In this document: positions 3,892 through 59,663 of the stretch, one piece after another
How positions within the stretch are numbered: position 1 is the first letter of the stretch
Layout of the letters: the number at the start of each line of letters is the position of its first letter
Assembly: GCA_003971905.1 (NCBI GenBank)
Contig: RSEE01000055.1
Location: 124,001-188,000 of the forward strand
DNA length: 64,000 nucleotides
Source of the DNA: Moniliella sp. 'wahieum'
Taxonomy: Eukaryota; Basidiomycota; Moniliellomycetes; Moniliellales; Moniliellaceae
Reading direction: 5' to 3'
Translations under genes and position numbers: made by a program
The notes under the pieces: model-generated
Database searches by the model: none
Told to the model about the DNA's origin: nothing
What the model saw: the letters and a program-made list of their open reading frames with translations, nothing else

Positions 3892-5332
3892 GAGGAGGAG
3901 GAGGAGGCGGCGGGCGGCGGAGGCGGCGGAGGCGGCGGAGAGGCGGCCAGACCGAAGCGAAGCACGGCGGGTGGCCGCAGCCAGGCGCAGTATGTATGCG
4001 CACGCGTGGCGCACAGCGCAGCTGCGCTGCCAGCCTGCGACGCCTGCAGCCTGCACGCCTGCAGCCTGCCGCGCCTAGCCTCGCGTGTGGCGACAGTGGC
4101 CGCGTGCCCCCCCACGACGCCTGCGCCTATCACGCGCCGCCAGTGCCCCCGTGCGCCTCCCAGCGCCCCACTGGCGCCACGCCCGTCCATGCCTCGGACC
4201 AGCGCGCCAGGGTGCGTGATATATGATACGCCGCAGTGGCTGGGCCGCCTCTCCTCTCGTCGGCCTCCCATGGCAGCCAACCCCCTCGCAGCGCCTCCGC
4301 CTCGCCGTTGCATCGCCCAGCCGTCGCTTGCGTCTGCGTAGCGCTTCCCAGCCCTCGCTCCTCCGCCCCCCACCAGCCCCTCCTTTCTACCGCGGCCACC
4401 GCCCGATCCCAGCCGAGCCTCAGCGCGGTGCAGACACCCCGCAACCCCCCACGCCCTCTCCTCTCCGCTCCCGTCGGCGGATGCGTCCGTGCGCTGGTCG
4501 CAACTCCAACATCCATCCATCTATCAGCTGGCTTGTGTGTCCTCGTACCCTATCGTATAGCATACCATCCCCCCATACCCCCCCCCCCATACCCCCCCCA
4601 TACCCCACAGATGCATGCAAGAGATATGGCCTCTTTCCTCCGTGGAGCTTCTGCTCCACATCCCAGCGGCCATTGCCGCCTGCGCCCCTGTGTGGGTCAA
4701 TGTACTCCATCGGTGTCGGTGGCGGTGTTTGGAATCCCGAACAGTGCTGAGTACAGGTTGTGGTTGGCCTGGGGAGGCTTGTTTTTCTGAATGGCCGCCA
4801 TACCAGCTCGGCCAATGGCTTCCCCGCATGGGCGCCCATCCCTGCTGGCGCCTTTCAAATCCCGTCCAATGGGGGCAGGCGGCCCCCAGGCACATCATCG
4901 ACATGCATCATCCATCGCCAGATCAGCAATCATTCATCACATTCATCACATGTCACAGACTATACATATCACCGCCATCTGTCCCGTCTGTCACGCCAGT
5001 CACACGTCACACGCTACCAACGTACCCCATATCGCCGTCAACGCGTCAACGCCACACCCCCGTCGTCTGGCTCTTGGCCTCGTGCGTCATCGCGGCTGGG
5101 AGGAATTACATCCATTACATACCCCCTGTTGCATGGTACATGGTACCCGTTAACCCCCCCCCCACATGGATCTTTCCTCCGCTTCATTCTGGACTGCCCC
5201 ATGGGGGTAAGCGCGCGAGTCATCAGTACTCACAACACACACTAATTAAATACTCTCACCCGTACTCAGTATTCACCGTACTCACGACTCAGTTGAGTAC
5301 TTACATGCGCGACTCACAAGGCTCAAGCGCTC

Positions 5333-5353
5333 AAGCTTCAAGCTTCAAGCTTC
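5333..5353. repeat. Palindromic heptamer array, (AAGCTTC)3
   Basis: Three perfect 7-base units, each the palindrome AAGCTT plus a C spacer. The next heptamer, AAGCGTC, keeps the phase. Member of the window-wide palindrome-plus-one family. Confidence 0.95.
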
Positions 5354-5919
5354 AAGCGTCACGGCGACATGTCACAATTGATGATTTTTGCACTTACGGA
5401 TTGACGTAACTGTGGAGAAGATAATGCCCGATATGCCCCTACTCTCCCATACTAGTGTGAAAGAGTGACTAGTGGCGAGAAAGATAGGGATTAACGCTTA
5501 GCCGCTTAACGATGATCGATTAAGCATCAATTCCAAAGAAAAGTAAGGTGGGGAGAAGTAAAACCCTAGGACAGGTGACCCAGTCTCACTAGTCACTTTC
5601 ATTGTGTTGGTCGCAGAAATGTCACAGGCTAGGACGCGCCTACAAGATGTCATGGGGCAGACCCAGAGCCGATTATCGTTCCAATCAGTTATTGGGCTCT
5701 GTTATAGATTTAGATGGAATGTTGGGTATGATGTGGGTGTAGTGGATCCCTCTGTGGCGATACCCACGATGCGTATAGACGAGCACTCAACGTTCAACCA
5801 AGTCCATCATAAGGGCGGGGGTACCACATATATGTCGCGGACCACCGTTGGCCAGAAGGAAACCCAGCCTATATGGACACAGGCCGAGCGGCCCAATCGA
5901 CCAGAGTGACTGTTACGCG

Positions 5920-8941: not shown

Positions 8942-11167
8942 TCATGACAGGGGGAAAAGGGGATTCAAAGACCCGTCGCTCGCCTCAGAAGCGAGGTGAG
9001 AAAGCGAGCTCAATCCGAACGAGATGGGCTCACCTTCAGGAGGGCCAGAGGTTCTCGGGCGTGGGCGGAAGAATCCAATCGGCCACGCCAGTGTCGTCGG
9101 CGAGGGGCCCATTGCGAGCGGCGCGTCGAGCGTAGGCTTCATACCATCCCCTTGGCGGATCAGACAGTGACGAGCTCGTGTCCCCCGACCGGTTGGAGTG
9201 GCCAGGGCTGTTGGGGCAACAGCAATAATAGCGTCAACGGAGGCCTCGGAGGTAGCGGAAACACTAGGCGAAGCGAAAGCAGACGTGGATGGCGACGTGT
9301 CCACGAAAGTAACATCTGTCACAGCAGGCACCGCTTGCTTGGGCCGTGGCAGGTGCCGGTGTGGGTGCGGGGTGGCCGGCGGGTGGGCGCGCGCGACCGC
9401 GAGGGCCGGGAGGTGTAGTTCAGCACAGGCGAGGAAGACGAAGGTGTATTTCCCTTGTTCATCGTCCGCCTTGCCCTGCCAGGGGCACGCCCATTTTGGG
9501 CGCCGGATCCGGGCACGCCCCTCGCCGTGCGCCACCAGGATGACGACGTGTGGAGGGTGGGGGGGCTCGCGTCAACGTCCGAATCCGCGTCAGCGTCCGA
9601 ATCCGCGTCGCGTGTCGAAGATTTGGCGAGGTGGCGCAATAATTTGCCCGCGGCCCGGTTAGCCTGGAAACAAGAGAGGAAGATAGACGGTCAGAATGTC
9701 GTTTTCTTAGGAAGGGAAGTGAAGGGAAGGCTTCCGGGCCAACGGTCAACATACAGTTGGGAACCAAGTAAAGTGCATCCGCTGCAGTAGCTCCTTGGCC
9801 TAGACCGCGTTGCACGTCTTTAGGCAGACCAGCCAGCACGACGAGGGCCAGTGTCAGGGCAAATTTCGGAAGACGCTGCCATGCGAGGAACCGTTCGTCG
9901 GGACATGTGTGTGCGTGCACTGGACGAGGCGGAGATGCCACTGTGGGTATGGCGCAGTCCGGTCGGGGTCTCGAGCCACTTGTTCGGTACGATCAACAGC
10001 AAAAAGGGACAGGCGGGGGTTCACACAGGTGAACGTTTGCTGCGGCGGGCACAACAGGAGTCGATGGATCTCGAAGCCCGGTTCCAATTTGTATGAATTG
10101 GAGGAGAGCTGGGAGGGCTGGAGACACCACAGTTTGCCGGGATGGTGGGTGTAGAGCGTCGAGGCAACGCAGGCCAAGGCCGCTTCGTAGCTGTCAAACC
10201 ACCGATCCGGGGCCACGCAAACTGTGGTGGGGGGGGCATGGGATCGGTGCCGCGCGTGGGCGCGGCGTTGGGAACCGGGATGCGGCTCGTCGCGGCGTCG
10301 GTGCGCCGTTTCTTGGCGGCGTCTCTGCGCCGTTTGTTGGCGGCGTCTTGCGCCGTTTGTTGGCGGCGTCTCTGCGCCGTTTGTTGGCGGCGTCTCTGCG
10401 CTGTTTCTTGGCTTTGTTGACCACTTCCGCCGCACTTCTCGATGCGGTCTGGCCACAGGAGCGACGGGGGCGCGGGAAGAGGAGAAGGAGAAGGTCAGCG
10501 GGCCGGGCGCGCATGGACATGTAACAAATACGCACCGTCCAGGTCACAGGGTGCTGCCGGAGGAGGATCGACCGGTCATGCGCTGCAACGCGTCATCATC
10601 GAGCCGTGACAGCGCGGCCAACATCTCCTCGCGCCAGCCCAGGGGCGTGCCGCGGGCCTGGACGGGAACGCGGGGACAGGTGCGGGCGTGGTTGGTGTGT
10701 TCGCGGATGGTCCAGGAGGGCAGCGCGGGCGCGGACGGAGGGGCGGTAGCGGGGACGTGCGGGAGGACGAGGATGAGGAAGGGGCAGTCGTAGGAGCGGC
10801 AGGTAAATGCGGTCTGGATGGGACCGATGTCGGACGGAGCTCCTTCGTTGTTGGCACGGATGGTGGACCACAAAGACGCGCTCGGGACGTGGAGCAATGA
10901 CAACTTCAACTCCTCAATCCCGGCTAGATGCGCGGGCGACAAGCGGAGACCCGCAATCTTGTCGGCGACAAACTGCTGCTGCACCACCCGGGCCACCGCC
11001 ATCTCCCGCGTCGGGTACACCGTCCCATCCGACGTCCACGCCAACTCCGTTTCCGTTGCGGATTCCGTTGGCGTGGAAGTGGCCGTAGTGGCCGTTTCCG
11101 TCTCCCTCGCCTTCACCTTCGCCTTCGCCCTCGCTCTCGCCTTCGCCCTCGCTCGCGTCGTTGCCAT
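8942..11167 (-). CDS. Unrecognised protein with zinc-ligand-like motif and KRRRDAAN repeats
   Basis: I do not recognise this gene. From the likely ATG at 11167 the chain starts with a basic stretch of alternating Ala/Arg/Lys, then an acidic Thr/Glu segment, a region with TREMAVARVVQQQFVADKI, and a patch FTCRSYDCPFLILVLP ... SWTIREHTNH whose Cys-x4-Cys and His-x3-His spacing recalls FAR1/GCM-type DNA-binding zinc folds. A possible intron (GTGCGTATTT ... GGCCAG, about 10445-10530) follows. Then come five copies of an eight-residue KRRRDAAN-like repeat, a segment RWFDSYEAALACVASTL and a hydrophobic stretch FALTLALVVLAGLPKDVQ. A second likely intron (GTATGTTGAC ... TTTCCAG, about 9662-9755) precedes an Asp/Ser-rich tail. 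Nuclear DNA-binding is only inference. The boundary at the C-terminus is uncertain and the frame hops. Confidence 0.5.
10295..10412 (-). repeat. 24-base coding tandem repeat, five units
   Basis: Units at 10295, 10319, 10343, 10366 and 10390. Four are 24 (last 23) bases; the third is 23 bases because one C is missing from CTCTG. Read on the minus strand the unit encodes KRRRDAAN, a highly basic octapeptide. The 23-base unit throws the downstream frame out, which is either real or a sequence error. Confidence 0.85.
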
Positions 11168-11870
11168 GGCCCTGGAGCAAACGAGAGGAGTGGACGCGAT
11201 CCACCTGCAAACAGCAGCCCCGACTGGGCTCACCCCCATCGGCATGTGTGTATCACGTGATGCATACGCGGGGGCGCGTCACACGTCCACTCAATGCTCA
11301 GGCTGAGCACTGACTAGTGACTAGTGACTAGGACTCAGCACTGGTCCGTGCGCTAAGTACTACACCTCGCCTCGCATGGAGCAACAGGGTTATACCGGCT
11401 ACTCCACACAGAGGCGTATGCGATGGACAAATTTGTCCCTATTCTTCTCACGGGCAAGCCGGCGTACATCGAAGGCGCCGCCATGCAAAGATACGAATGG
11501 AAAGAGGAGGTCTGTTTTGAGGCCAAGCTCATGGTCGAGGTCGAGGCTGTAATAACGACACCGGCTATCAGTAGTAAAGGCGGAGACAACAGCTTTTCCA
11601 AGTTACAAGCTCAATGTCGCCCATACCGGCGTCTGGTACTCTTAACTGTGGATATTTTGTCACTTTTCATTTAAAACGACGAATCATCTTGTCTCTTTCC
11701 TCTTCGCGAGGGCAATGAGCACACACGAATGAGGAATGTTCAAGTGAACTGGGGAATGTCGCAAAGCTGTACTGGTACGAAATCCCCCATTTGGTCCATT
11801 CGAGAGACGAACCAAAGTGATATAAAACTGAGTCTTAGGCATGGACACGATCCCGCTAGCCAACAGAAGG
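11168..11870. other. Intergenic region with ACTAGTG heptamer array
   Basis: Between the start of the gene to the left and the stop of RAD50. It contains TGACTAGTGACTAGTGACTAG at 11311-11331, a member of the palindromic heptamer family, and the RAD50 3' flank. A possible RAD50 terminal intron (from 11910 leftward) could place a last coding exon around 11700-11840. Confidence 0.5.
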
Positions 11871-23093: not shown

Positions 23094-23672
23094 GGAATAG
23101 TCCCGTGTTCCCAGAGTGTCGGGCGAGTACGGGGAGTATCAAGCGAGAGAGTACCGCCGATGGGGTCCCGGTCAGCTGATCGGGGAGCAGCCGAGGGGTG
23201 AGCCAGAGAGGGTTTGGCGGTAGCGGCGCAGGCGCAGCGGCGCCAGCACTGGTGCCTACGTCCACTGGAGATTGGATCGAAGGCGGGGGCGGATGGATCC
23301 AGAGCGGGGCACGCAAAGAGGAGGAAGGCACGAGGGTGTCCTGCGCGCAAGGAGTGGAGCACGCAGTGGGATCCTCCACAGGGGACAGACGGACGCCGAT
23401 GGAGCTGGACTCGAGGTCGGCAGGGCTGGTGACAAGGGCCGGTGGCGGGTGGCGGGACGCGGGCGGAGCGCGGCAGGCAGGGGAGGTGTTGGCGGTGGAG
23501 GGAGGGGGGGGGCCCATGGCGGGCAGTGGGGGATGGTGGGGGCGTGTCTGAAGCGAGGCTTGGCAGCCGCAAATCGCCAATCAGTACTCAGTCATCGGCA
23601 TGCGTGTTCGCGTGCACTGAACACTGACGTTCACCTGAGCTCAAACGTTCATGTTAGCTGCCTCTCGGCCTC

Positions 23673-23780
23673 CGATCGCAGCCTCTCGTCTCGACTCTCC
23701 GATCGCAGCCTCTCGTCTCGACTCTCCGATCGCAGCCTCTCGTCTCGACTCTCCGATCGCAGCCTCTCGTCTCGACTCTC
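23673..23780. repeat. 27-base tandem repeat, four perfect copies
   Basis: Units at 23673, 23700, 23727 and 23754, each starting CGATCGCAGCCTCTCGTC, then a fifth diverging copy from 23781. The copies are identical, which implies recent expansion. The 27-base length keeps a 9-residue repeat open in every frame on both strands, but no gene is otherwise supported. Confidence 0.95.
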
Positions 23781-23943
23781 CGATCCCAGCCGCCGCCAGC
23801 AGCAGCACGCTCAGCCGCAGCACGCCACAGCGCCCCACTCCCCAGGATACGCAACCCTAGCGACCCTTCCCACAACTGCCCTCATGCCTCATGCCCCATC
23901 CTGCATCCCGCCCCTAACCGATGCTAAATGTGAAGGACCGGTG

Positions 23944-23976
23944 ACTAGTGACTAGTGACGCTAGTGACGAACTAGT
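23944..23976. repeat. Palindromic heptamer array, (ACTAGTG)n
   Basis: Two perfect ACTAGTG units (23944-23957), then a degenerate stretch and another ACTAGTG. Same unit as the array at 11313-11326. Confidence 0.9.
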
Positions 23977-26864: not shown

Positions 26865-28200
26865 GGGTACTGTGGCTGTTGGTTAGGCGAGTGCGGATGG
26901 GGTGGTGGTGGCAGTCCAGAAATGTAAAACGGTGTCGTTCTTGAGAGAGGAGAATCGAAAAGAATATAGCCACGCAGGGAAAAAAACGGCCGCGTAGAAA
27001 GAGCACCGTCTTTTAAACGCGTGACGCGTGACGTTGACGGACCCGCGCGTGTAAATCCAGTGGCGTCATCGTGCCGAAAAGTTCGATCACAGTGACGCCG
27101 ACAGTTTCGCACAGGGGGGCTGTCACATGTCCCATGCAATGCGTCACAATGTGACACCCCACCCACGCGCAGCAGGCCGGCGGAATGGCACACGAGGCGC
27201 CTTGGCAGTCGAAACTGGGCTCGAGCATTGCAACGCTTGCGGCAGTGTGACCCACCCCCCATCCGATCTAGGATCTGAATCTAACATCGTGATGACTGGC
27301 ATGGAACATGGTCACTGAATCGAGAGGACATGGCTGTTGGGCGTTGGGCCGGCCCACCTCCTACACGCTGCATCAGAGCAGCAAGTACCTGTTGGCCTGC
27401 GTGCTCCCGGCCAGCTGACGGACTGAATCTGGCCGGCGGCTCGGGGCCTGCCGGGGCCAGAACGCCCCGCCGGGGCGGTTCTGGCCTGTAACATGTTATG
27501 CAAGTTACGGCCACAGGAAACATACCGATGTAAACGTGGACGTTGAACGTACTACGTACGTTGAACGCTAACGGTACTGGACCCTGTGGGATAGGTTGTC
27601 GACTATCCACCATCCATTTTGTAATTGGCCAGTATCACGGTCCTCTTAGCTAATCAGGGGAATCTTCTCACCGCTCTCCCCGCCGATCCTGTTCTCCCTC
27701 CTCCTACCAGTGCATCTTTGGCTTCCCTTGGTACTTGGTCTCACCCGTATCGCCCGATTCTTACAGCCAGAGTAGAAGAGAGAACCTCTCTCTCTGGTTT
27801 CAACATATCAGAGTAGACGCCGGTCAGATCTCAGGCTGTTTTCGGTAAAACCACGGGAAGGGATGTGGAACTCAATATCAATGCTGTTCCTTCCACTCTT
27901 TTCACACTTTACTGCCAGCATCCTATTGGCTGGGGGACCACGGCCATTTCTTGACCGTCCGTAGTGATTAAACCAGTTCTAACTAGCTCTAACTCCTACT
28001 GGTCACTAGCCGTTTTAACTACCGGTTACCCACAGCCTCGATGCTCGCGCTCGCACACAACAGCGGTCGATGACGTCAGTGACCAGTGATTATCAATTAA
28101 ACCTAAGCCTAAGCCTTAGGAGCTAGCTTAGGCGCTTAGGCCCCTTCGGCCTTAAACTTTTAAGTGATCCATTACTAGCTTTACTGATTAATGACGTATG

Positions 28201-28275
28201 ATGCATGATGCATGATGCATGATGAAGATGGATGCCGGTGACCGGTGACCGGTGACCGGTGATGCATGATGCATG
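28201..28275. repeat. Compound palindromic heptamer array: ATGCATG, ACCGGTG, ATGCATG
   Basis: (ATGCATG)3 at 28201-28221, a 19-base linker, then (ACCGGTG)3 at 28241-28261 running directly and in phase into (ATGCATG)2 at 28262-28275. Two unrelated palindromes share one 7-base register. Confidence 0.95.
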
Positions 28276-28598
28276 ATGCCTGCCGCCGAGCAAAATAAAC
28301 GCCTTCGAAAAAGTGAGCAACTGCTGTCACAGATTGTCGCCTACTGTTGCCCGCCCGGGACAAGGCGGATCCATAGAGCAACTGGGAAACCCGGTAACGA
28401 ATAGTACCCAACATGCAACAGCCAGTTACCGGTTGCCGGCTACCGGTCACCGTACCAGCAACCCCAGGAACCGCCAAGAGTCAAATAATCGTCGGCGCGA
28501 CCGCCACATGAAGGCTGCTTGTGGTGACCGGTGTGGCCTGTGGTGAGTACTCAGGCTCAGTTAACTGAGTGCGGGCAAGCTCTGTCTGGGGATGGTTC

Positions 28599-28619
28599 AA
28601 CGTTCAACGTTCAACGTTC
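28599..28619. repeat. Palindromic heptamer array, (AACGTTC)3
   Basis: Three perfect copies of AACGTT plus C, followed by ATTAATG, itself palindrome-plus-one after a one-base offset. A second AACGTTC array is at 53234-53247. Confidence 0.95.
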
Positions 28620-29408
28620 ATTAATGATTCCACCCTCCCCCACCGACCATGGGGAAAGGGGCTCGACCGGCGACCAGAGCGCCCTGTGCGCGCAGCGTCA
28701 GGCGCGTCAGATCTCAGACCGTCAGACCGCGCCACGCGTCAGGAACCACTCTGAGAATGGCGAGAAGGCGCTAAAATTAATATAAGGACTCACCGGTACT
28801 CCCCGAGCATCCCGCTGCTGCCTTCCCTGATAATTGCATCCCCACCATCTCTCCCCTTTTTGTCATGCTCGCCTCCCACAGGTTTGCTAAGGCCATATAT
28901 CGGCAGGCCTGGGGCCCAAGGGCCTAAGACTTAAGGCAAATGTAAGCCACGGGGTAAGGCACCAAAAAAGGAAGGCAAATGTCAAAAAGAGCCCGAGAGG
29001 AACTGTGCCCAAAACGTAAAGTCGAAAAAGGGAATAAACTTCGATACTACACAATGGGGGAATGTATGGGACCGCATGGTTCTCGGATTTTGTTGGAGGC
29101 CGGATTTCTCGTTTGTCAGTGGCAAAAAATTGCCTGTATGTTTGTGTGGCCGAGACAGGCACACGCCAATAACGTCTTCAATACCGCAGCCTCCACGAGC
29201 TCTTTGGAAGCAGGACTGAGCGCGCTGAAGCCTGCTGGAGTTATTATCTGAAGTTTGAAGAGCTTGTGAAGCTTGAAGGTAGGATAGTACAGCCATAACC
29301 CAAGTAGAAACTAGTACGTGGAGCTAGGTGAATATTGAATAAGTTTAGAGGTTCTGGCACGTCTGCGTCATCATATGCACATGCATCATGCGCCATGCGC
29401 CATGCACC

Positions 29409-29443
29409 ATCGATCATCAATCATTAATCATCGATCATCGATC
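29409..29443. repeat. Phased palindromic heptamer array with sequence switching
   Basis: Five consecutive heptamers in register: ATCGATC, ATCAATC, ATTAATC, ATCGATC, ATCGATC. ATTAAT is again a perfect palindrome, and the intermediate ATCAATC is one substitution from each, as if a paired change had passed through it. Confidence 0.95.
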
Positions 29444-29569
29444 ATCAAATCAGTTGACTAGGAACTGCGCTGTGCCAGTTTCTAGTTACTTCTCGATTAC
29501 TAGAAGGGTCTCTCGTGTGACATGCGCCACGTGACGCGTGACGTATGAGCATACGATGTGGTTGAGATC

Positions 29570-29590
29570 ATCGATCATCGATCATCGATC
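29570..29590. repeat. Palindromic heptamer array, (ATCGATC)3
   Basis: Three perfect copies of ATCGAT plus C. It lies 127 bases to the right of another ATCGATC array. Confidence 0.95.
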
Positions 29591-29720
29591 AGAAGACTTG
29601 CAGGCTCCTGCAGCACTTCCGGTCCGGCGTTGCTCGCTCCGCGGCCGGCGGTGTTTCATACGGAGCGCGGCTGCGGCAGTGGCTATCGCACCGAGTTTTA
29701 CATTTCCCGCCGAAGTGGTC

Positions 29721-29741
29721 ACCGGTCACTGGTCACCGGTC
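29721..29741. repeat. Palindromic heptamer array, ACCGGTC type
   Basis: ACCGGTC, ACTGGTC, ACCGGTC in register. The same palindrome ACCGGT occurs with a G spacer at 28241-28261. Confidence 0.9.
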
Positions 29742-29863
29742 ATCGAGGTCATCGGTCATTTGTCCTCTCTGTTGCGCCATACGTGATGCGTGACGTTGTG
29801 TGACTTGCATGTGCAACAACTGTGTGTTTGTTTTAATGCTCGCTCGTTTTGGGGAAGTTATTC

Positions 29864-29902
29864 AAGCTTCAAGCTTCAAGCTAATGTCACGCGTCACGCG
29901 TC
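29864..29902. repeat. Palindromic heptamer arrays (AAGCTTC)2 and (ACGCGTC)2
   Basis: AAGCTTC at 29864-29877, then, after 11 bases, ACGCGTC at 29889-29902. Two different palindromes, each repeated with the same spacer C, lie almost side by side. Confidence 0.9.
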
Positions 29903-29967
29903 AGCGTCACGAGTCAAGCTGGTCAACCTTCAAATCTTCAAGCTACAAGTGAAGCTTCGTGCACTTC

Positions 29968-29988
29968 ATGCATCATGCATCATGCATC
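29968..29988. repeat. Palindromic heptamer array, (ATGCATC)3
   Basis: Three perfect copies of ATGCAT plus C. The reverse complement of ATGCATC rotates to ATGCATG, so this is the same array type as 28201-28221 in the opposite orientation. Confidence 0.95.
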
Positions 29989-31968
29989 ACTCATCATATG
30001 CGCGACTAGCGCGCTGATGCGCTGATGATTGGTTAGCGTCGCACCCCGTTCCCCTCCTTCTCTCATGGTGCGTTCAAGGTCGGACTACACCAACTGACAA
30101 GAAGCTATCTATAACTGTTCCTCCTCGCACAGTAGTGCAATCGTCATCCTTAGCTTGGTAGCGTAGATACTTGTCAATTAACGGACAACCGCGGTTCTGC
30201 ATTCTGGGCTCTCAGATCTCATTATGGTGTGACCGATTCATGGCGCTCACCCATTGATAGCCCAGTGTAGTGCTTCGCCTCGCCCTAGCCCCCATTCTTT
30301 CAGGAGGGAGTAGTGATTAGTGATTTGAGTGGGTCATGTAGCTCATCGAGCGCATTTCGATCCTGTGCCACCTCTCGACCGTTGCATTTTTGCAAAACAA
30401 TCTCTGTGATGAAAATGTCACATTGGAGGCGAAGGTGAAGAAGGCCAGAGGACTAGGTGAAGGGATGTAGCAATCGTTCGTGGGGAAGAGGCAAGAGCAG
30501 AGGGCATGGTACGAAGCGGGACAACAGGGAAAGGTCGAGACGCTCGGGACGAAAAGAAATTGGAAATGGGAGCCTGCGAGCTGCGCTACATCCGGTTTGG
30601 AAGCGAAAGGCGGGCGAGAGAGGGTCCTGAGCCCTGGCCGGCCTTACCTGCAAGCGTCTCCTCTCGTTTCCTAAACGGGTTTTGGCGCAAACAAGCATGG
30701 TAATGTGGGGAGTATGCTAATGCATTATTCCTTCTGCGCTTACAGTGTATAACGATACCAAAAATGGCAAAAATGGAAGCGGCAATTACTGTATAGAGTG
30801 CGACTCGGACGCTTCACTCGTAAAGTCTGTGGTGCGGTGGAACAGGGCACTCTCCGACGAACCGAACAGTCTATTACAGGAAAGCTAGCCATCAGCAGAG
30901 AGTGGGCACAAGTTACAAGTGAAGCGAAGAACGGTGCGGTGGTGGAGAGACAGGACACTAAGTAGAGAAGGAGGACGGAAAAGGCGAGCGCGCGCGCAAG
31001 CGCGAAGAAGTATCGGGTATGAACTGATCTTTAGTGCCTCTGAGCCATAGCGCCAGCCTATTAGTGTCACCCCCACGTCACAAAAGACCCCCCCCCACCT
31101 GATAACTTGCCTAGGAACGCCGTGAGGACGAGGGGAGGTACGGGCGCGGGCGGCTTGTCCATTGCAGATTGGGAGGCGCGGCGGAAGGTCAATAGTTAGC
31201 CTCCGCCGTTAAAGAACAGAGAGCCACGCTTCCCTTGCAAGTACTCGTGCATATACAGCTCGCGGCCATCAAAGTGGAGCAGCACGTCCGTTGTGTCCCT
31301 GGAGGCTTGGGCAACGCGATAGGGGCCCTCCTACTTGGCTGCTAGTGCTCCAAGTGTCTCGCAGCGTTTTACGGCGCAAACAGAGCGCTTGACCAAGCAT
31401 CCGGGCGGGAAGTGGATACGCTATACCCGCGGGGATGCAGTACGCGTGGCGGCGATGCTGCTCTGCAGCTCGCGCAGACGCTCCGCACTGATGAAGTGGT
31501 CCTCCTGTACGGAGAAGCGAAGTTGGGTTGGACTGGCCTCAGGGATATGTGTGCTTGCACCTTCGGAAACGTGTTGGAGAAGCGGCGCTCAAAGAAGATG
31601 GTAGCGGGAGCGGTATGGTCAATGTGGCGACAGAGCCTCTCAGGGGCGGACATTGTGGGCGTGCACCACAAAGGCGTCGTCGAGCACTGCTGGCCAACAC
31701 CCAATTTGGAGCAGAAAGAGGAACGGAGGGTAGTGCATAGCCTTTTCCAAACTCGACACCTCTTATTGACCGCCGACAAGGTCAAGAAGGCCTGGATAAC
31801 TGGATAACGATACCGCCGAAGCTGCGGCGGCTGACCTCAAATAGAATGGAGCGCACCTGGGACAAACCGTGCCAGTTGGCGCTTATCCATCATGCTACAG
31901 ACATTCAATCTGCGGGCAGGACGCGAATATGCGAGTCCAGACCAATTTCCGGAGTTTAGTGCTCCCAA

Positions 31969-36245: not shown

Positions 36246-36535
36246 AAGGTGTTGGCCATGCATGAGATTCGATACCCATCCACCAGTATGTGGGCACAGC
36301 GTCGACCATAGTTTGCTCCACCTCGATTGCGGCGGAAGGGATGGAATTGAATTGCGGCGGGCCAATTCCGCCTCCCAGTGGAGCACACGCTCCTCCAGCC
36401 TCCTGGGGCCAAGTCGGGGGAAGAAGGGTAGCGAAGACTGGCGCAGTGCGGGCGCTCACGCGTCGCGCCTGCTTTTCTAGTTGGTTCGCCGAGCCCTTCC
36501 ACATTGACGCCACCACCTCATCCACCGCCACACCC

Positions 36536-38251
36536 ATGGCTGCTGTAGCGCACACGTCGTCCAGCGCCCCGGGCGCTACCGGGGGACCGGGAAACAAGGC
36601 CTTCAAGAATGCTGACAAGCCTGATGAGGTCCGCCGCTCCAACATGGCGGCTGCAAAGGCGGTCAGTGATGCGGTCCGCACCTCTCTCGGGCCCAAGGGC
36701 ATGGACAAGATGATTCAGACCGCTCAAGGCGAGGTAGTGATTACCAACGACGGAGCCACCATCCTCAAGCACATGGCTGTCATGCATCCCGCTGCTCGCA
36801 TGCTCGTCGAGCTTTCCCAGGCCCAGGACATTGAGACGGGCGATGGCACCACGTCGGTCGTGGTTGTGGCAGGGGCGCTCCTGGGTGCAGCTGAGAAGAT
36901 GCTGGCCAAGGGGATTCACCCCACCGTCATTGCCGAGTCGTTTGTCAAGGCATCTACCAAAGCCGTTGAATACCTGACCGAGATCAGCACCCCCATCGAC
37001 TTGAGTGACAAGGAAGCCCTCCTCCGTGCTGCTCACACCAGTCTCAACTCCAAGATTGTGTCGCAGTACTCGTCGACGCTTGCGCCGATTGCGGTCAATT
37101 CTGTACTCCGCCTGCTGCACAACAACTCCCACTGCGCCGGGACCTGTGTCGGCACTGCCCATCACCTCCACTGGCGCAGCTCAGGAAAGCGCGCGTGGCA
37201 CCGTCGAGCCAGCGGGGACAGCGACGAGTGATGAGCCATCGGTGGACTTGCGCGACATTCGGTTGGTAAAGAAGGTGGGGGGCACCATCGAGGACACGGA
37301 GATGATGGATGGCCTTGTACTGGAGCAGAACGCAGTGGCCAATTCTGGCCCGACCCATATGGAGAAGGCTAAAATTGGCGTGTGTCAGTTCCAGCTGTCT
37401 AGCCCCAAGCCTGATATGGACAATCAGATTGTGGTCAACGACTACCGTCAGATGGACAAGATCCTGAAGGAGGAGCGGCAATACTTGCTCAATATGTGCA
37501 AGAAGATCAAGAAGCTGGGTGCAATGTCTTGCTGCTGCAAAAGTCTATCTTGCGCGACGCTGTCAACGACCTTGCGCTCCATTTCCTGGCCAAGCTCAAG
37601 ATCCTTGTCATTAAAGACATTGAGCGCGACGAGATGGAGTTTGTGTGCAAGACGCTTCACACCACCCCCATTGCGGACATTGATGCATTTACCGAGGACA
37701 AGCTGGCGTATGCAGACTTGGTTGAGGAGGTACAGCTTGCGGGCACGCGTGTGGTCAAGGTGTCTGGCATCAAGAACATGGGCAACACCGTTAGCGTCCT
37801 GTGCACCGGTGCCAACAGCCTCGTCTTGGAGGAGAGCGAGCGGTCGCTTCACGATGCGCTGTGTGTAGTACGCTCGCTTGTCAAGAAGCGCGCCCTGATT
37901 GCCGGCGGTGTGCCCCGAGGTGCATGTTTCGCGGCAGCTGGCCCAGTATGCACAAAAGTTGCAGGGCATGGAAGCCTTCTGTTTCCAGGCATTTGCCGAT
38001 GCTTTGGAGATCATCCCACCACGTTGGCCGAAAATGCAGGGCTCAACCCGATCGCTATCGTGACTGAGCTGCGCAACCGACATGCTCAGGGGGAGACGAC
38101 CGCCGGCATCAATGTACGCAAGGGAACAATCACCAACATTCTGGAAGAAAATGTGTTGCAGCCCTTACTTGTCAACACGTCGGCCATCGAGCTTGCTACT
38201 GAGACCGTGTCCCTCCTGCTTCGGATCGACGACTACCATTTGGCCAGGTGA
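36536..38251 (+). CDS. CCT4: T-complex chaperonin CCT subunit delta (CCT4)
   Basis: One of eight subunits of the cytosolic CCT/TRiC folding ring, whose main clients are actin and tubulin. From ATG at 36536: [31 protein letters not shown] (nucleotide loop), [12 protein letters not shown] and the catalytic [32 protein letters not shown] and [17 protein letters not shown] follow. The delta identity comes from [36 protein letters not shown] and [20 protein letters not shown]. The end has [20 protein letters not shown] and [16 protein letters not shown], stopping at 38251. An insertion of roughly 35 Ala/Ser/Thr/Pro residues sits at 37115-37230, where other CCT4 proteins pass directly from VNAV..D to SVDLRDI. 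Frame hops lie near 37120, 37520 and 37910-37960. Confidence 0.96.
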
Positions 38252-38492
38252 AGAATTGCATCAGCATTTTGGTCGTTTTTATGTTGCTACTAAGCGTCTT
38301 CATGATGTGGGTGGCTGACTACATATCGAGAGCCTATAACGAAAGAGCGAACAATATCTGTGTAGTACAGCATGTGTGCATGGAAGCCCTGCTCCAGAAG
38401 CAGGCAAGAAGGCAGATCAATGCCATTGGCTGGCCCACCAGCTAGCGGGTTGCGAGTCAGCCCTTTTTTTGGGGGGGGGGCATGCAAAGCAC
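38252..38492. terminator. Convergent 3' region of CCT4 and eS1
   Basis: The 241 bases between two stop codons must carry both polyadenylation regions. A T7-G10 run at 38464-38480 is a likely trouble spot for sequencing. No clear AATAAA is present. Confidence 0.4.
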
Positions 38493-39274
38493 TTAGACGC
38501 TAGCGAGGGGGGTGGGCTCGACGAACTCAGCGCTCTTGACCTTGGCGCCAAGGTCCTCAGCACCCACCACGTTAGCCGCACCACCGTGGAGTTCAACCAA
38601 ACGCGAAACGTCAAACTTGGGCTTCTTGATGATCTTGACCTTGTGGACAAACACGTCCTTAAGAGGGTAGATCCCACGAGTCGACTTCTCGATCTCGCGG
38701 CCAATGACCTCAGGAATGAGCTTCTGGACAAGCTCCTTGATGTCGCACGTCTCGATCTCGCGCTTGATGATCTGGAACATCTTTTGCCGGATGGCGCGCA
38801 CCTGGGCCGACTGGGCGTAGGTGGTCTTCGACACGCTGTTGGAGCGACGCTTGGTGAAAGCAATGACAAACAGACGCACAACGTAGCCGTCCGTCAGCTT
38901 CACATCCTGGTGTGCCTCAATGGTGGTCTGCCACTTGCGGACGAGCGAACGGATCTTGTCCGTAGTGAAGTTCATCGAGTGGAAGTTGGTAAGGCACGAC
39001 CGGCCCTGAACCTCATCGACGCGCAGAGAAAACTTGCGGAAGGACTGCTCCTCGTCCTTGTTGAGGTCAGCGAGCGAGGCCTCGACGATGCGGCCCTTGA
39101 GCGAGTCGTTGGCGTTCACCAGACCCTGGGACTTGTTGACGATGGTCTTGCCAACAGTACGGTTGTCGAAGAAGGTGGGTGCCCGGATGTCGTGCCACAC
39201 CTTGCGCGACATAGGGTCGACCGTCTTTTCTTCATGCCCTTCTTGCCGAGCTTCTTGTTCTTGCCGATCGCCAT
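38493..39274 (-). CDS. RPS1: Small-subunit ribosomal protein eS1 (S3Ae/Rps1)
   Basis: Component of the 40S ribosomal subunit near the mRNA exit. [16 protein letters not shown] starts at 39274, followed, after restoring one A lost from the A-run at 39226-39229, by [16 protein letters not shown]. The rest is a clean single frame: [75 protein letters not shown] and a tail with [10 protein letters not shown] ending EPTPLASV. About 259 residues, normal for eS1. This is one of the best preserved genes here and therefore a good yardstick for the indel rate. Confidence 0.97.
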
Positions 39275-39296
39275 CTTGGAAAACTGTCCGGGAACA

Positions 39297-39416
39297 CTGC
39301 GCACAGAGAGGTTAGCGCTACTCCTTGCCATGGATGGGGCCGTCAACGGGCAGACGACGACAGTATCGGTGTCGCCGTCCTGACAGAAGGGCCCTACTGG
39401 CGGGCACGATGCTTAC
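39297..39416 (-). other. Probable 5' UTR intron of the eS1 gene
   Basis: On the minus strand a donor CGAG/GTAAGCATC begins at 39416. A branch-like GCTAACC lies 17 bases before the acceptor CTGTGCGCAG ending at 39297, 22 bases upstream of the ATG. 5' UTR introns are common in fungal ribosomal protein genes. Confidence 0.65.
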
Positions 39417-52916: not shown

Positions 52917-53156
52917 TCACGGCAAGGCCTCTGGCAAGACCAAAGGGTTCAACTATAATTTAACTATTAGTCGCGCTTCCTTTTCTCTAATGTAATGTCT
53001 CGTTCACGGCCGCAGTGGGGATAATCGATGGATGCTTTGTGTCGAAAAAGTATAGAATTAAGTGTGTGGATCTAGTGGAACCTATCTATAGATCCACTTC
53101 AATATGGATAATATTGTTACTCTAAATTGAACCTCACAAGCACCAAGAGCTCTTAC

Positions 53157-53177
53157 AGATCTCAGATCTCATCGATC
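53157..53177. repeat. Phased heptamers AGATCTC-AGATCTC-ATCGATC
   Basis: Two AGATCTC units pass directly and in register into ATCGATC. The palindrome changes at two symmetric positions, but spacer and phase do not. Confidence 0.95.
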
Positions 53178-53233
53178 ATCGGATCATCATGTATCAGATC
53201 ATCAATTCTCATATCTCAACGTTCAAACCGTTC

Positions 53234-53247
53234 AACGTTCAACGTTC
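53234..53247. repeat. Palindromic heptamer array, (AACGTTC)2
   Basis: Preceded by ACCGTTC in register. Same unit as 28599-28619. Confidence 0.9.
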
Positions 53248-53297
53248 ATTGAGAATAAGCCTCTCAGGCCCTCATTAGGCCCTCAGGCATCGACTTC

Positions 53298-53360
53298 AAG
53301 CTTCAAGCTTCATTGAGTACTGAAGGCCTCAAGCTTCAAGGGCCTCAAGCTTCAAGCTTC
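53298..53360. repeat. Palindromic heptamer cluster: AAGCTTC and AGGCCTC
   Basis: (AAGCTTC)2 at 53298-53311, AGGCCTC-AAGCTTC in register at 53324-53337, and (AAGCTTC)2 at 53347-53360. Another switch between palindromes in one register. Confidence 0.9.
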
Positions 53361-53497
53361 AAGATCCTCCACTTCAAGCATGATGCATGATATGCATATG
53401 AGACGTTTTCGTAATCGCGACCCTCCCTAGGCATCTCTTCACAAGCTACACTAGCCACTTACTGCTTTTAACATACTTGCGCGAAAACTCCGTTGTA

Positions 53498-53511
53498 ACG
53501 CGTAACGCGTA
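53498..53511. repeat. Palindromic heptamer array, (ACGCGTA)2
   Basis: ACGCGT plus A twice, followed by ACGTC. The only array type here, with 53741-53754, whose spacer is A. Confidence 0.9.
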
Positions 53512-53733
53512 ACGTCTATAACGCATGAAGCTTGAAGCATGTTAAACGTACGTTAAAAACGCACGTGTGATGATGCAGGAGTAGTAACTAGTTATGTAAA
53601 GATGTGTGTGTTAGCTTAAGTCCGTGGGGAATGGCGCAACAGATGTAGCCAGGCGGCAGCAACCGCTAAGCGCTGAAAGCGCTAATAACCGCCCGGAGAA
53701 ACCGTCGTCATGCTGGAGATTATACATGGATTA

Positions 53734-57261: not shown

Positions 57262-57837
57262 ATGAGGTCACCAAGTTTTTCCGGCACCTTTGCGACCGCT
57301 GTCGCCCCGTTTCACCACTGCTTGCTTTGTCCTTATTTTCCGTTGCGCCTGCGGCAAAACGAACCCTCTTTTGACATGTCTTTTCCTTTCTACACCCCTA
57401 TTGTGCCCGTTTTCCCTTTTAGATATACTCTGTACCCCTGGTTATGGTGGGGATCCTTTCCCCAACACCTCCCATTCTGGCCCCTTCTCTCGCCTTTCCT
57501 GCCCGACTCCTCTGCCCGCTTCCAGCCATTGACTCAGTACAGAGGCAACTTCGTCTACCAGCTTTCCATTAGCCCACCAGCCGCTTCGAGTCCCCATACC
57601 AACTTATCGCTTGGGTTCCTTTCCAGACGCAGCGTCAACAGCCGCCCCTGTTTAGTCCCAACTCTGGCAGTGTGTTTCTTCTCCATATTGCCTCTACCCG
57701 TTCCCAACAAGCCCTGGAGACTTCAGCAATGCGTACGCCGCCTTTCCACACGTGAAGCTGTCTCCGCTCCACCCCCAAAGGCCCCTTGTCATGGGGGGGG
57801 TCCCGAGGTGCCCCCCCCCTGTAGTTTAGGGGTGTAA
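57262..57837 (+). CDS. Unrecognised open frame in repeat-rich region
   Basis: 191 codons with a Phe/Pro/Leu-rich composition (FPFYTPIVPVFPFRY, WLWWGSFPQHLPFWPL). No domain is recognised. The composition follows a CT-rich tract, so it may be a by-product. It could also be part of an unrecognised transposon. Confidence 0.2.
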   Translation: MRSPSFSGTFATAVAPFHHCLLCPYFPLRLRQNEPSFDMSFPFYTPIVPVFPFRYTLYPWLWWGSFPQHLPFWPLLSPFLPDSSARFQPLTQYRGNFVYQLSISPPAASSPHTNLSLGFLSRRSVNSRPCLVPTLAVCFFSILPLPVPNKPWRLQQCVRRLSTREAVSAPPPKAPCHGGGPEVPPPCSLGV

Positions 57838-58543
57838 ACCCTTGGACAGATCAATCGGTGGCTCGTCCGTTAGGTCCTGCTCCAGATCCTGGTTGAACCG
57901 AGCGGGTGTAGAGGCTAGGGAGAGACCCTCTAGTTTGGGTGGCTGCCTGCGTGCAAAGGCCGCAGTCCAGACCCTCCGAGGTAGGAGCCGTGTACGTAGG
58001 TCGATAGACCAGCTGAAGGGGTCCAGGAGCTCCGGAATTACTCTGTTCCTCGCCGCGTTACCACACTCGGTACGCTGTAGCCGGCGGGAACAGACAGAGT
58101 CCTAAAGAAGAGCAAGCGCTACTGATGTGAGTAATCGCGGCTTGCAGTGCACTCGACGTAAGTCGTAAATTCGTAAGCGTAAGGGTGGTAGAAGGTGGAC
58201 GGGCGAGAGAGGAAGTGGTAGTCGGGGAGACCAACGGTAATAGACAGGATGGTCGACAAGGACCACAGCTAGCAAGCCTTAGACATGGCTGCTTATATAC
58301 AGCAGAGGGAACCAGACCTCAAGTGCCTCATGACAGGTATAGACAGAATGCGGGGCACTTCCCAGAAAGGTAAAGAAGACTAATGCACAGCCCTTGCTTC
58401 CCAAGGCGCTGACGCTGCGCAGTCGGGCGCAACAGGAAGGGTTCTGACAAGACTGGCCGCAATAGGCACAAAGCATCGTACCGATAAGACCATGCGGCCA
58501 TGGCGGGCCGCGGAGGATATCCGCAGCAAGGATAAGGTGTCGA

Positions 58544-58640
58544 CTGGCTCTCTCTCGCTAGTCTAACCGAACTGACGCATGTTGGGCTGAGATGTCTACG
58601 ACATGCGGGGCTCAGCGTCCGGAGATAGCCGGAGCGCCCC
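58544..58640 (-). repeat. Dispersed repeat, copy B (inverted relative to copy A)
   Basis: The reverse complement matches 5920-6013. In the minus-strand frame it reads SGYLRTLSPACRRHLSPT and VRLARES, against GYLRTLSPARRSH and VRLAREN in copy A. Conservation of this peptide despite base changes hints that the frame mattered once. Confidence 0.7.
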
Positions 58641-58974
58641 GTAACCCCCTTCTCGTCCCTACCTCCGCTCGGATTCACCAACTAGCTCTTCAAGCCAGAA
58701 ACCACCGTGAGTTGTCCTTCCGTGTCTCCTAAGGGTTTTTGTACCCCACAAACCTGGGTGAGGCCCCTGACAGGGCCCGCCCGTGACTGTTAGCTTTTGT
58801 GGGCAGTGCCGCAAGGTTCTGGAGGCTTGAAGGGAGACCATCACCCTGAAAACAGTAGTGCCATTCTAAACGAGGAGAGTCGCTCTGTGTGGGGGAAAGA
58901 ATGTCTTTTCCCCGAGAAAAGGTATCATATATCACGGGCAAAATTATTTAGAACCGCAAAACGTATATATCCCT

Positions 58975-59563: not shown

Positions 59564-59659
59564 GGTCGATTAGCTCAGTTGGTCAGAGCGTGGTACTAAT
59601 ATGTCCTGCCTGGAGTGTTGGTAATGCCAAGGTCATGAGTTCAAGCCTCATATTGACCA
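59564..59659 (+). tRNA. tRNA-Ile(AAT) with intron
   Basis: The cloverleaf is complete. The acceptor GGTCGAT pairs with ATTGACC (one G-T). The D arm is GCTC/GAGC. The anticodon stem is TGGTA/TGCCA with loop CTAATAA (anticodon AAT at 59598-59600). The variable loop is AGGTC and the T arm ATGAG-TTCAAGC-CTCAT, with discriminator A. A 22-base intron (59602-59623) interrupts the loop one base 3' of the anticodon, the canonical place. The A box (TAGCTCAGTTGG) and B box (GTTCAAGCC) are intact. Confidence 0.95.
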
Positions 59660-59663
59660 CATA

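Follow-up and report, generated by a model that had tools for sequence, protein, structure and literature searches.

Seven-base-pair units of TNA and a self-complementary tetramer in the genome of Moniliella sp. 'wahieum'

Described systems and the Moniliella units

P nucleotides, as known from V(D)J joining and hAT footprints, are short reverse-complement copies of end bases that stand beside a duplication and vary in length. CNG repeats are tandem palindromes with one spacer, whose single strands can pair with themselves at the cost of one mismatch in each unit, and the cyanobacterial STRR are heptamer direct repeats, many of them intergenic. A heptamer direct repeat of one fixed sequence, TAACTGA, also occurs in many intergenic copies in the Beggiatoaceae (PMC4679880). 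In yeast rad27 lines, the events described in parts of PMC5677150 consist of a reverse-complement copy taken from a nearby strand, followed by a return to the original template, and they involve existing inverted repeats or palindromes. Hairpin-creating template switches follow a similar course, with reverse-complement copying and then a switch back to the original template (PMC8794818), and loss of FEN1/Rad27 yields small inverted triplications with medians of 148/160/148 bp, as given in sections of PMC13334657.

We analysed one stretch of 64,000 nucleotides of the Moniliella genome (contig C55, positions 124001-188000; hereafter the window) in an assembly of 69.5 Mb and 223 contigs. Genes recognised in it, which mark the genome as eukaryotic, include those for alpha-tubulin, a subunit of the CCT chaperonin, an MFS transporter, a COG6-like protein, and a protein with a histone deacetylase domain. 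The 7-bp units described here resemble template-switch and quasipalindrome mutations in containing a reverse-complement copy of adjacent sequence, but this copy is always two bases long and T-N-A is needed beside it; unlike the yeast events sketched in PMC5677150, the units show no prior inverted repeat. They share with the triplications outlined in PMC13334657 direct copies that flank an inverted one and, if the mechanism proposed below is right, the fold-back of a flap end, at 5/2/5 bp here versus 148/160/148 bp there. They differ from CNG repeats in having a period of seven, any tetramer, mostly single units, and a one-sided first product, and from the Beggiatoaceae heptamer, with the fixed sequence reported in PMC4679880, in that any tetramer is allowed and its halves covary.

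The rule shared by the units

The first-pass annotation described a family of 7-base arrays, almost every unit a palindromic hexamer that begins with A and ends with T plus one spacer, mostly C or G. Such arrays do occur at the locus it singled out, as three exact period-7 runs at 28198-28224 (ATGCAT plus G), 28235-28262 (ACCGGT plus G), and 28260-28279 (ATGCAT plus G). Across the window, 34 of the 53 exact period-7 runs (at least 14 bp, two or more copies) consist of a palindromic hexamer and a spacer; the same holds for 57/133 runs in a 200-kb sample made of ten kb from each of contigs C1-C20, taken at fixed positions and thus non-random, with runs of one base excluded from both counts. The excess over composition for which the annotation proposed a test is present: one dinucleotide shuffle of the sample gives 17 period-7 runs with four palindromic ones, and at periods other than seven the palindromic fraction in the sample is no higher than in the shuffle. 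An A..T hexamer is found in 86 of the 91 palindromic runs of window and sample together, 77 of them with C or G as the spacer; five of the 91 hexamers lack the initial A, and the spacer lies close to the background of TNA sites, with C in slight excess.

The rule that the units share is a TNA triplet followed by a self-complementary tetramer, and not the hexamer. In sample and window combined, the tetramer is self-complementary in 234/403 cases of TCA-N4-TCA and in 30/67 of TTA-N4-TTA, against an average of 5.9% over all flank pairs, and TCA..TCA stands alone among the 4,096 triplet flank pairs around four bases. The excess lies at a gap of four, and at one of 11, which equals two units. It persists in isolated units with no neighbour at 7 bp (TCA 109/218, TTA 21/43; next unrelated triplet 11%), and centres of the same symmetry, A-N-T, C-N-G, and G-N-C, are self-complementary in 1-8% of cases. 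Self-complementary units number 164/307 in the sample and 100/163 in the window, whereas 200 kb of E. coli K-12 in four stretches gives 14/213 (the first stretch alone 7/49) and shuffles about 6%. Three neighbouring patterns were seen in sample and window: the perfect 10-bp palindrome TGA-N4-TCA is enriched (22/72), but as the flanking copy is absent in 16/22 it was treated separately; TCA-N3-TGA is in mild excess (54/128 against 32 expected); and a weak version of period 8, whose loop is the four bases CTCA/TGAG, gives 8/15 and 5/10.

The genome at large was covered in part, by a 20-mer count and by pattern lists with a free filler drawn from the first contigs. The assembly contains the 20-mer TTCAAGCTTCAAGCTTCAAG 532 + 611 times, against 0 for its backwards control. 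For each pattern the first 100 places listed were counted. The filler is AG in 78 of those for TCACT-NN-TCACT (C1-C2; 2,538 places genome-wide) and AC in 72 of those for TGAGT-NN-TGAGT (C1-C3; 1,551 genome-wide), and the control TCCCT-NN-TCCCT (C1-C6; 946 genome-wide) has AG in 4. Adjacent units of one array count as separate places in these lists (ten at C2:480318 in the TGAGT list), and the backwards control, being the same string as the pattern, is uninformative for them.

Units lie at 130 places in the sample (0.65 per kb; shuffles give about six units) and at 74 in the window, which makes 204 in 264 kb; the density in the sample extrapolates to some 45,000 units in the genome. At 57 of the 74 window places there is a single unit, so the supposed family of arrays is for the most part a family of single units. 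Stop-free reading frames of 250 aa or more make up 37% of bases but contain just 11 of the 130 sample places, a depletion expected of any frameshifting 7-bp insertion.

All 16 self-complementary tetramers are found, from AGCT (42) to AATT (2). This bears on the suggestion of the first-pass annotation that the arrays may bind a family of homodimeric proteins. Palindromes, and their depletion in long reading frames, would suit such sites. However, a protein site keeps a sequence and not bare complementarity, whereas here every tetramer occurs, the pair beside TNA is nearly free, and complementarity is kept without sequence; the depletion is the one that any 7-bp insertion would bring, and many places differ between alleles. 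We therefore rejected the homodimer site for want of a conserved sequence and regard selected binding sites of one such protein, or of a family of them, as very improbable. The other reading offered in the same annotation fits better: a synthesis, templated or based on hairpins, by which symmetry is enforced agrees with a complementarity that is kept whatever the bases.

The 12-bp product, its growth and its alleles

The basic product, TNA-cd-d'c'-TNA-cd, is 12 bp long: two direct copies of a 5-bp sequence enclose a filler of 2 nt, which reverse-complements the two preceding bases. A plain abTNAcd site that had received 7 bp would read the same. The 6 + 1 unit of the arrays is real as a palindromic period-7 run, but the primary product is this single 12-bp insertion anchored on TNA. 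Among runs of at least 12 bp, the only ones counted, the commonest length is 12 (56/171), with a second peak at 19, and the two commonest forms, TCA-xy-y'x'-TCA-xy (31) and y'x'-TCA-xy-y'x'-TCA (26), are one form seen from opposite strands. When sites with the same triplet 7 bp away are excluded, 130 isolated units remain, of which 84 have the extra pair on one side, 23 on both, and 23 on neither. The unextended side of the one-sided units shows single-base matches in 8 and 3 of 46 and in 9 and 3 of 38, near or below chance; the missing pair is therefore not one that was present and decayed.

When loops of 1-6 bases were scanned against stems of 1-4, the strong excess fell on loop TNA with stem 2, where the filler is the reverse complement in 133/170 cases for TCA, 137/183 for TGA, 20/31 for TAA, and 17/31 for TTA; other period-7 rows of the scan (for example loop 1, stem 3) show these arrays again in a shifted register. 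Three-base loops with a stem of one, three, or four show no excess in the scan, and longer or shorter stems with this loop were rejected because the excess lies at stem 2 alone. A full fold-back of the 5-mer was rejected as well, the full inverted 5-mer, which would have period 10, being found in 0/237 cases. A pre-existing imperfect inverted repeat is not seen, for the unextended side shows no excess match and the odd palindrome d'c'TNAcd, where it stands alone, is scarcely above background (7.5% of lone TCA sites, against 5-8% for other centres). The complementarity seems to have been created in the insertion event itself.

For the 84 one-sided isolated single units, we set the inferred ancestral site against the TNA sites that lie no more than 400 bp away. 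The event requires T and A around a nearly free N, which is C in 40, G in 30, A in 8, and T in 6, against a background of 35, 36, 15, and 14%; the spacer described as mostly C is mostly explained by this near-background composition with its slight excess of C. The pair cd is nearly free too, with GC, GG, AA, TT, and TA low (GC 1 against 6.1 expected, GG 2 against 5.9). T is scarce just before TNA (6 against 18.3 expected), and recognition of a wide flank was rejected, as this shortage is the main departure that the comparison shows; low T at -7 and +8 is an artefact of excluding neighbouring TNA.

Arrays are most simply repeats of the single-insertion event. Growth from one anchor ab-TNA-cd predicts b'a'ab units to the left, cdd'c' units to the right, and outer flanks ab and cd. 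We confined this test to chains in which every unit is self-complementary, and 136 of the 167 such arrays (130 of the 167 being single units) fit one anchor heptad exactly, a fit that a pure unit would reach by chance about 12% of the time; the remaining 31 violate the rule. Of ten mixed arrays, six are exact one-anchor fits and four fit on one side; both sides of one TNA are used. The joining of two palindromes in one register, which had been noticed at the annotated locus, holds and is explained by such growth: at 28239-28276 the flanks are GG and TG, as expected from an anchor GG-TGA-TG (Table 1).

Table 1. Units, arrays and allele differences listed by position in the window; the other allele lies on contig C1
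Feature	Coordinates	Strand	Remark
Mixed array, CCGG x3 then TGCA x2, TGA strand	28239..28276	+	Anchor GG-TGA-TG, growth in both directions
TGA + TGCA x3, then TG	28199..28222	+	Right-hand type
Single unit TGA TTAA TGA	28185..28194	+	
TGA CGCG TGA	27022..27031	+	Other allele with an additional non-palindromic heptad adjoining
TCA + ACGT x3	28597..28620	+	
Single unit TCA GATC TCA	28707..28716	+	
Single unit TGA AGCT TGA	29267..29276	+	
C1 allele +7 bp	29294..29294	+	CATAA here, CATAA TG CATAA there
Single unit TGA ATAT TGA	29329..29338	+	Other allele 7 bp shorter, TGG for TGA
TCA + TTAA, TCGA, TCGA	29421..29444	+	Other allele 7 bp shorter
Single unit TGA CGCG TGA	29532..29541	+	This allele only; stretch poorly aligned
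TCA + TCGA x3	29568..29591	+	Other allele 7 bp shorter
TCA CCGG TCA, non-palindromic unit, TCA CCGG TCA	29719..29742	+	
TCA + AGCT x2	29862..29878	+	
TCA + CGCG x2	29887..29903	+	Flanks against one-anchor rule
TCA + TGCA x3	29966..29989	+	Other allele 14 bp shorter
TCA + AGCT x3	5331..5354	+	
TGA + CTAG x2	11311..11327	+	
TGA + CTAG x2	23942..23958	+	Flanks against one-anchor rule
Mixed TGA + TCGA, TTAA	42124..42140	+	Right flank alone fits
C1 allele +7 bp	53097..53097	+	CTTCA here, CTTCA AG CTTCA there
Mixed TCA + GATC, TCGA	53162..53178	+	One anchor TC-TCA-TC fits
TCA + ACGT x2	53232..53248	+	
TCA + AGCT x2	53296..53312	+	Not found in other allele (gapped alignment)
TAA + CGCG x2	53496..53512	+	N = A
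Single unit TAA TCGA TAA	53746..53755	+	Substitution breaks unit in other allele

In four alignment blocks totalling 16,196 bases, the other allele, on contig C1, differs by 3.6% substitutions, and the comparison of allele lengths that the first-pass annotation had in mind covers these two alleles of one genome. Indels of 7 bp number ten, against 7, 2, and 8 of 4, 5, and 6 bp and a single one of 8 bp. Four of the ten are single TNA units present in one allele (29294, 29329, 53020, and 53097), with the caveats that the shorter allele reads TGG at 29329 and already has an odd palindrome at 53020; three are steps in array copy number (29427, 29566, and 53861), and three have no clean TNA fit (27599, 28664, and 52802). 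Array length varies between the alleles in whole units, by steps of 7 and 14 bp. Among 46 unit places, 31 are common to both alleles, five are found in C55 only, and ten in C1 only. The 15 one-allele places comprise four clean 7-bp differences, four places made or broken by substitutions (27489, 29479, 52158, and 53746), and seven in gapped or unclear alignment, while the number of palindromic units differs at 16 of the 31 shared places, in some of them through substitutions. An artefact of assembly or sequencing is hardly credible, given that 31/46 places are common to two alleles at 3.6% divergence and that both the 20-contig sample and the places listed genome-wide follow the rule. Two other differences lie in the same region: an 8-bp one at 30011, GCGCTGAT, and at 27679 an additional 178 bp in the C1 allele, bounded by a short CCCGC match and perhaps a deletion in the C55 allele.

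These length steps invite comparison with hairpin-favoured slippage of tandem repeats, as in CNG repeats, whereby pre-existing 7-bp odd palindromes would be duplicated since the unit folds. Each unit is self-complementary save one mismatch, arrays differ by whole units between alleles, and the shorter allele at 53020 already holds the odd palindrome; at least some of the copy-number change is probably slippage. As the origin of the units it is improbable, however, and period-7 slippage of old palindromes was rejected, since lone odd palindromes are so little enriched and the first product has a palindrome on one side only; mixed arrays, moreover, follow the flanks of one anchor. CNG-like centres were likewise rejected, the CNG and GNC centres being self-complementary in 4-8% of cases. 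Where a microsatellite would consist of tandem copies of an ancestral unit, we found a one-sided first product with a reverse copy and a predominance of single units.

Proposed fold-back copying and its alternatives

We hold, with moderate confidence, that a recurrent, sequence-triggered event of fold-back copying writes 7-bp insertions at TNA. What is kept in the units is complementarity and not sequence, which points to DNA copied by DNA. The change would be a gain rather than a loss, and would convert ab-TNA-cd into ab-TNA-cd-d'c'-TNA-cd or its mirror image ab-TNA-b'a'-ab-TNA-cd, in steps that may be set out as follows:

(i) DNA synthesis may end, or the DNA may be nicked, at the edge of TNA.

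(ii) The end would then copy the two bases beside TNA in reverse, as d'c', so that d'c'-TNA-cd folds into a mini-hairpin whose stem is 2 bp and whose loop is three bases. The path, the simplest that leads to just this product, can be drawn as a fold-back of a 3' end at the TNA edge; in an alternative drawing, the growing end would switch onto a displaced 5' flap that starts with TNA and is ligated across the three-base loop.

(iii) Synthesis would resume on the original strand, with TNAcd repeated, and the hairpin would be fixed as a 7-bp insertion. The continuity of the sequence is consistent with such a return to the original template.

(iv) Further events inside the product would give the same palindrome and thereby extend an array, while a second palindrome could arise only if the outermost TNA fired towards the other flank.

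Several observations count against fold-back copying in this form. Simple physics predicts neither a strict 2-base stem nor a limit to T-N-A, GC-rich stems are unfavoured, 23 of the 130 isolated units have neither flank, and 31 of the 167 arrays depart from the one-anchor rule. The limit to T-N-A, together with a 2-base stem among which strong stems are unfavoured, suggests the geometry of an enzyme rather than the stability of a hairpin. We put forward only tentatively, as something we doubt more than we believe, that the lineage has a dedicated enzyme or an altered polymerase or flap system that recognises T-N-A and makes a fixed 7-base insertion templated by two bases.

The product is also formally equal to a 5-bp duplication, TNAcd, plus two P nucleotides, such as are left when a hairpin-sealed flank is opened, and hence could be the excision footprint of a cut-and-paste transposon, either of the hAT/V(D)J type or of a TNA-targeting kind like IS1031 or PIF-Harbinger. 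Events occur on both sides of the symmetric TNA, and TNA is the target of the IS1031 group, while PIF/Harbinger uses TWA. Against this origin, which we consider unlikely, the filler has a fixed length of two, whereas P nucleotides vary in length, and no element was found, either in a self-comparison of 274 kb or in a genome search for PF13359. The self-comparison gave few dispersed repeats, the one examined being LTR-like, and no DNA transposon was recognised, compared with 204 unit places in 264 kb. The search for DDE_Tnp_4 (PF13359) gave 0 candidates in 69.5 Mb, with a control that was positive in just 1/14 known genomes, and the hAT dimerisation domain PF05699 had no match in the genome, with a control that was silent. 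PIF-type excision, moreover, is known for precise repair (PMC4561436).

If a dedicated enzyme or altered system of the kind put forward above does write the units, they would form a new, strictly rule-bound class of indels, with about 45,000 units by extrapolation in one genome, and one that is still running. Full-text searches of the open-access literature brought up nothing like a 7-bp rule anchored on TNA among the papers listed. Insertions are usually described by their length and local repeats, and here one rule predicts the letters inserted as well as the sort of site that receives them. Fold-back copying becomes directly testable on very many natural examples within one genome, and an enzyme, if there is one, may be findable by setting species that have the signature against relatives that lack it. 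Covariation that resembles selection for pairing may here come from mutation alone. The units also offer highly variable markers.

A few further features of the window and the genome were recorded. The region of the CCT gene (window 36290-39383) has further matches elsewhere in the assembly at 98%, at 84% (two), and at 85-86% (two), which suggest a diploid of hybrid or polyploid origin; C9, C38, C160, and C109 carry the gene in more distant copies. The LTR-like dispersed repeat, of ~860 bp, lies at window 57787-58645, at 3174-4016 of L014, and at 6256-7087 of L017; it looks like a solo LTR, and the window copy has CCCCT on both sides. Matches to 5.8S rRNA number 14 (L034, L035, and 12 other places), many of them only a few kb from where a contig starts, which would suit rDNA near chromosome ends or contigs that broke there. 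A tRNA gene of 97 bases lies at window 59564-59660, called by ARAGORN with an unclear anticodon and matched by Rfam as tRNA, and tandem repeats of 24 and 27 bp occupy 10292-10412 and 23663-23791, respectively.
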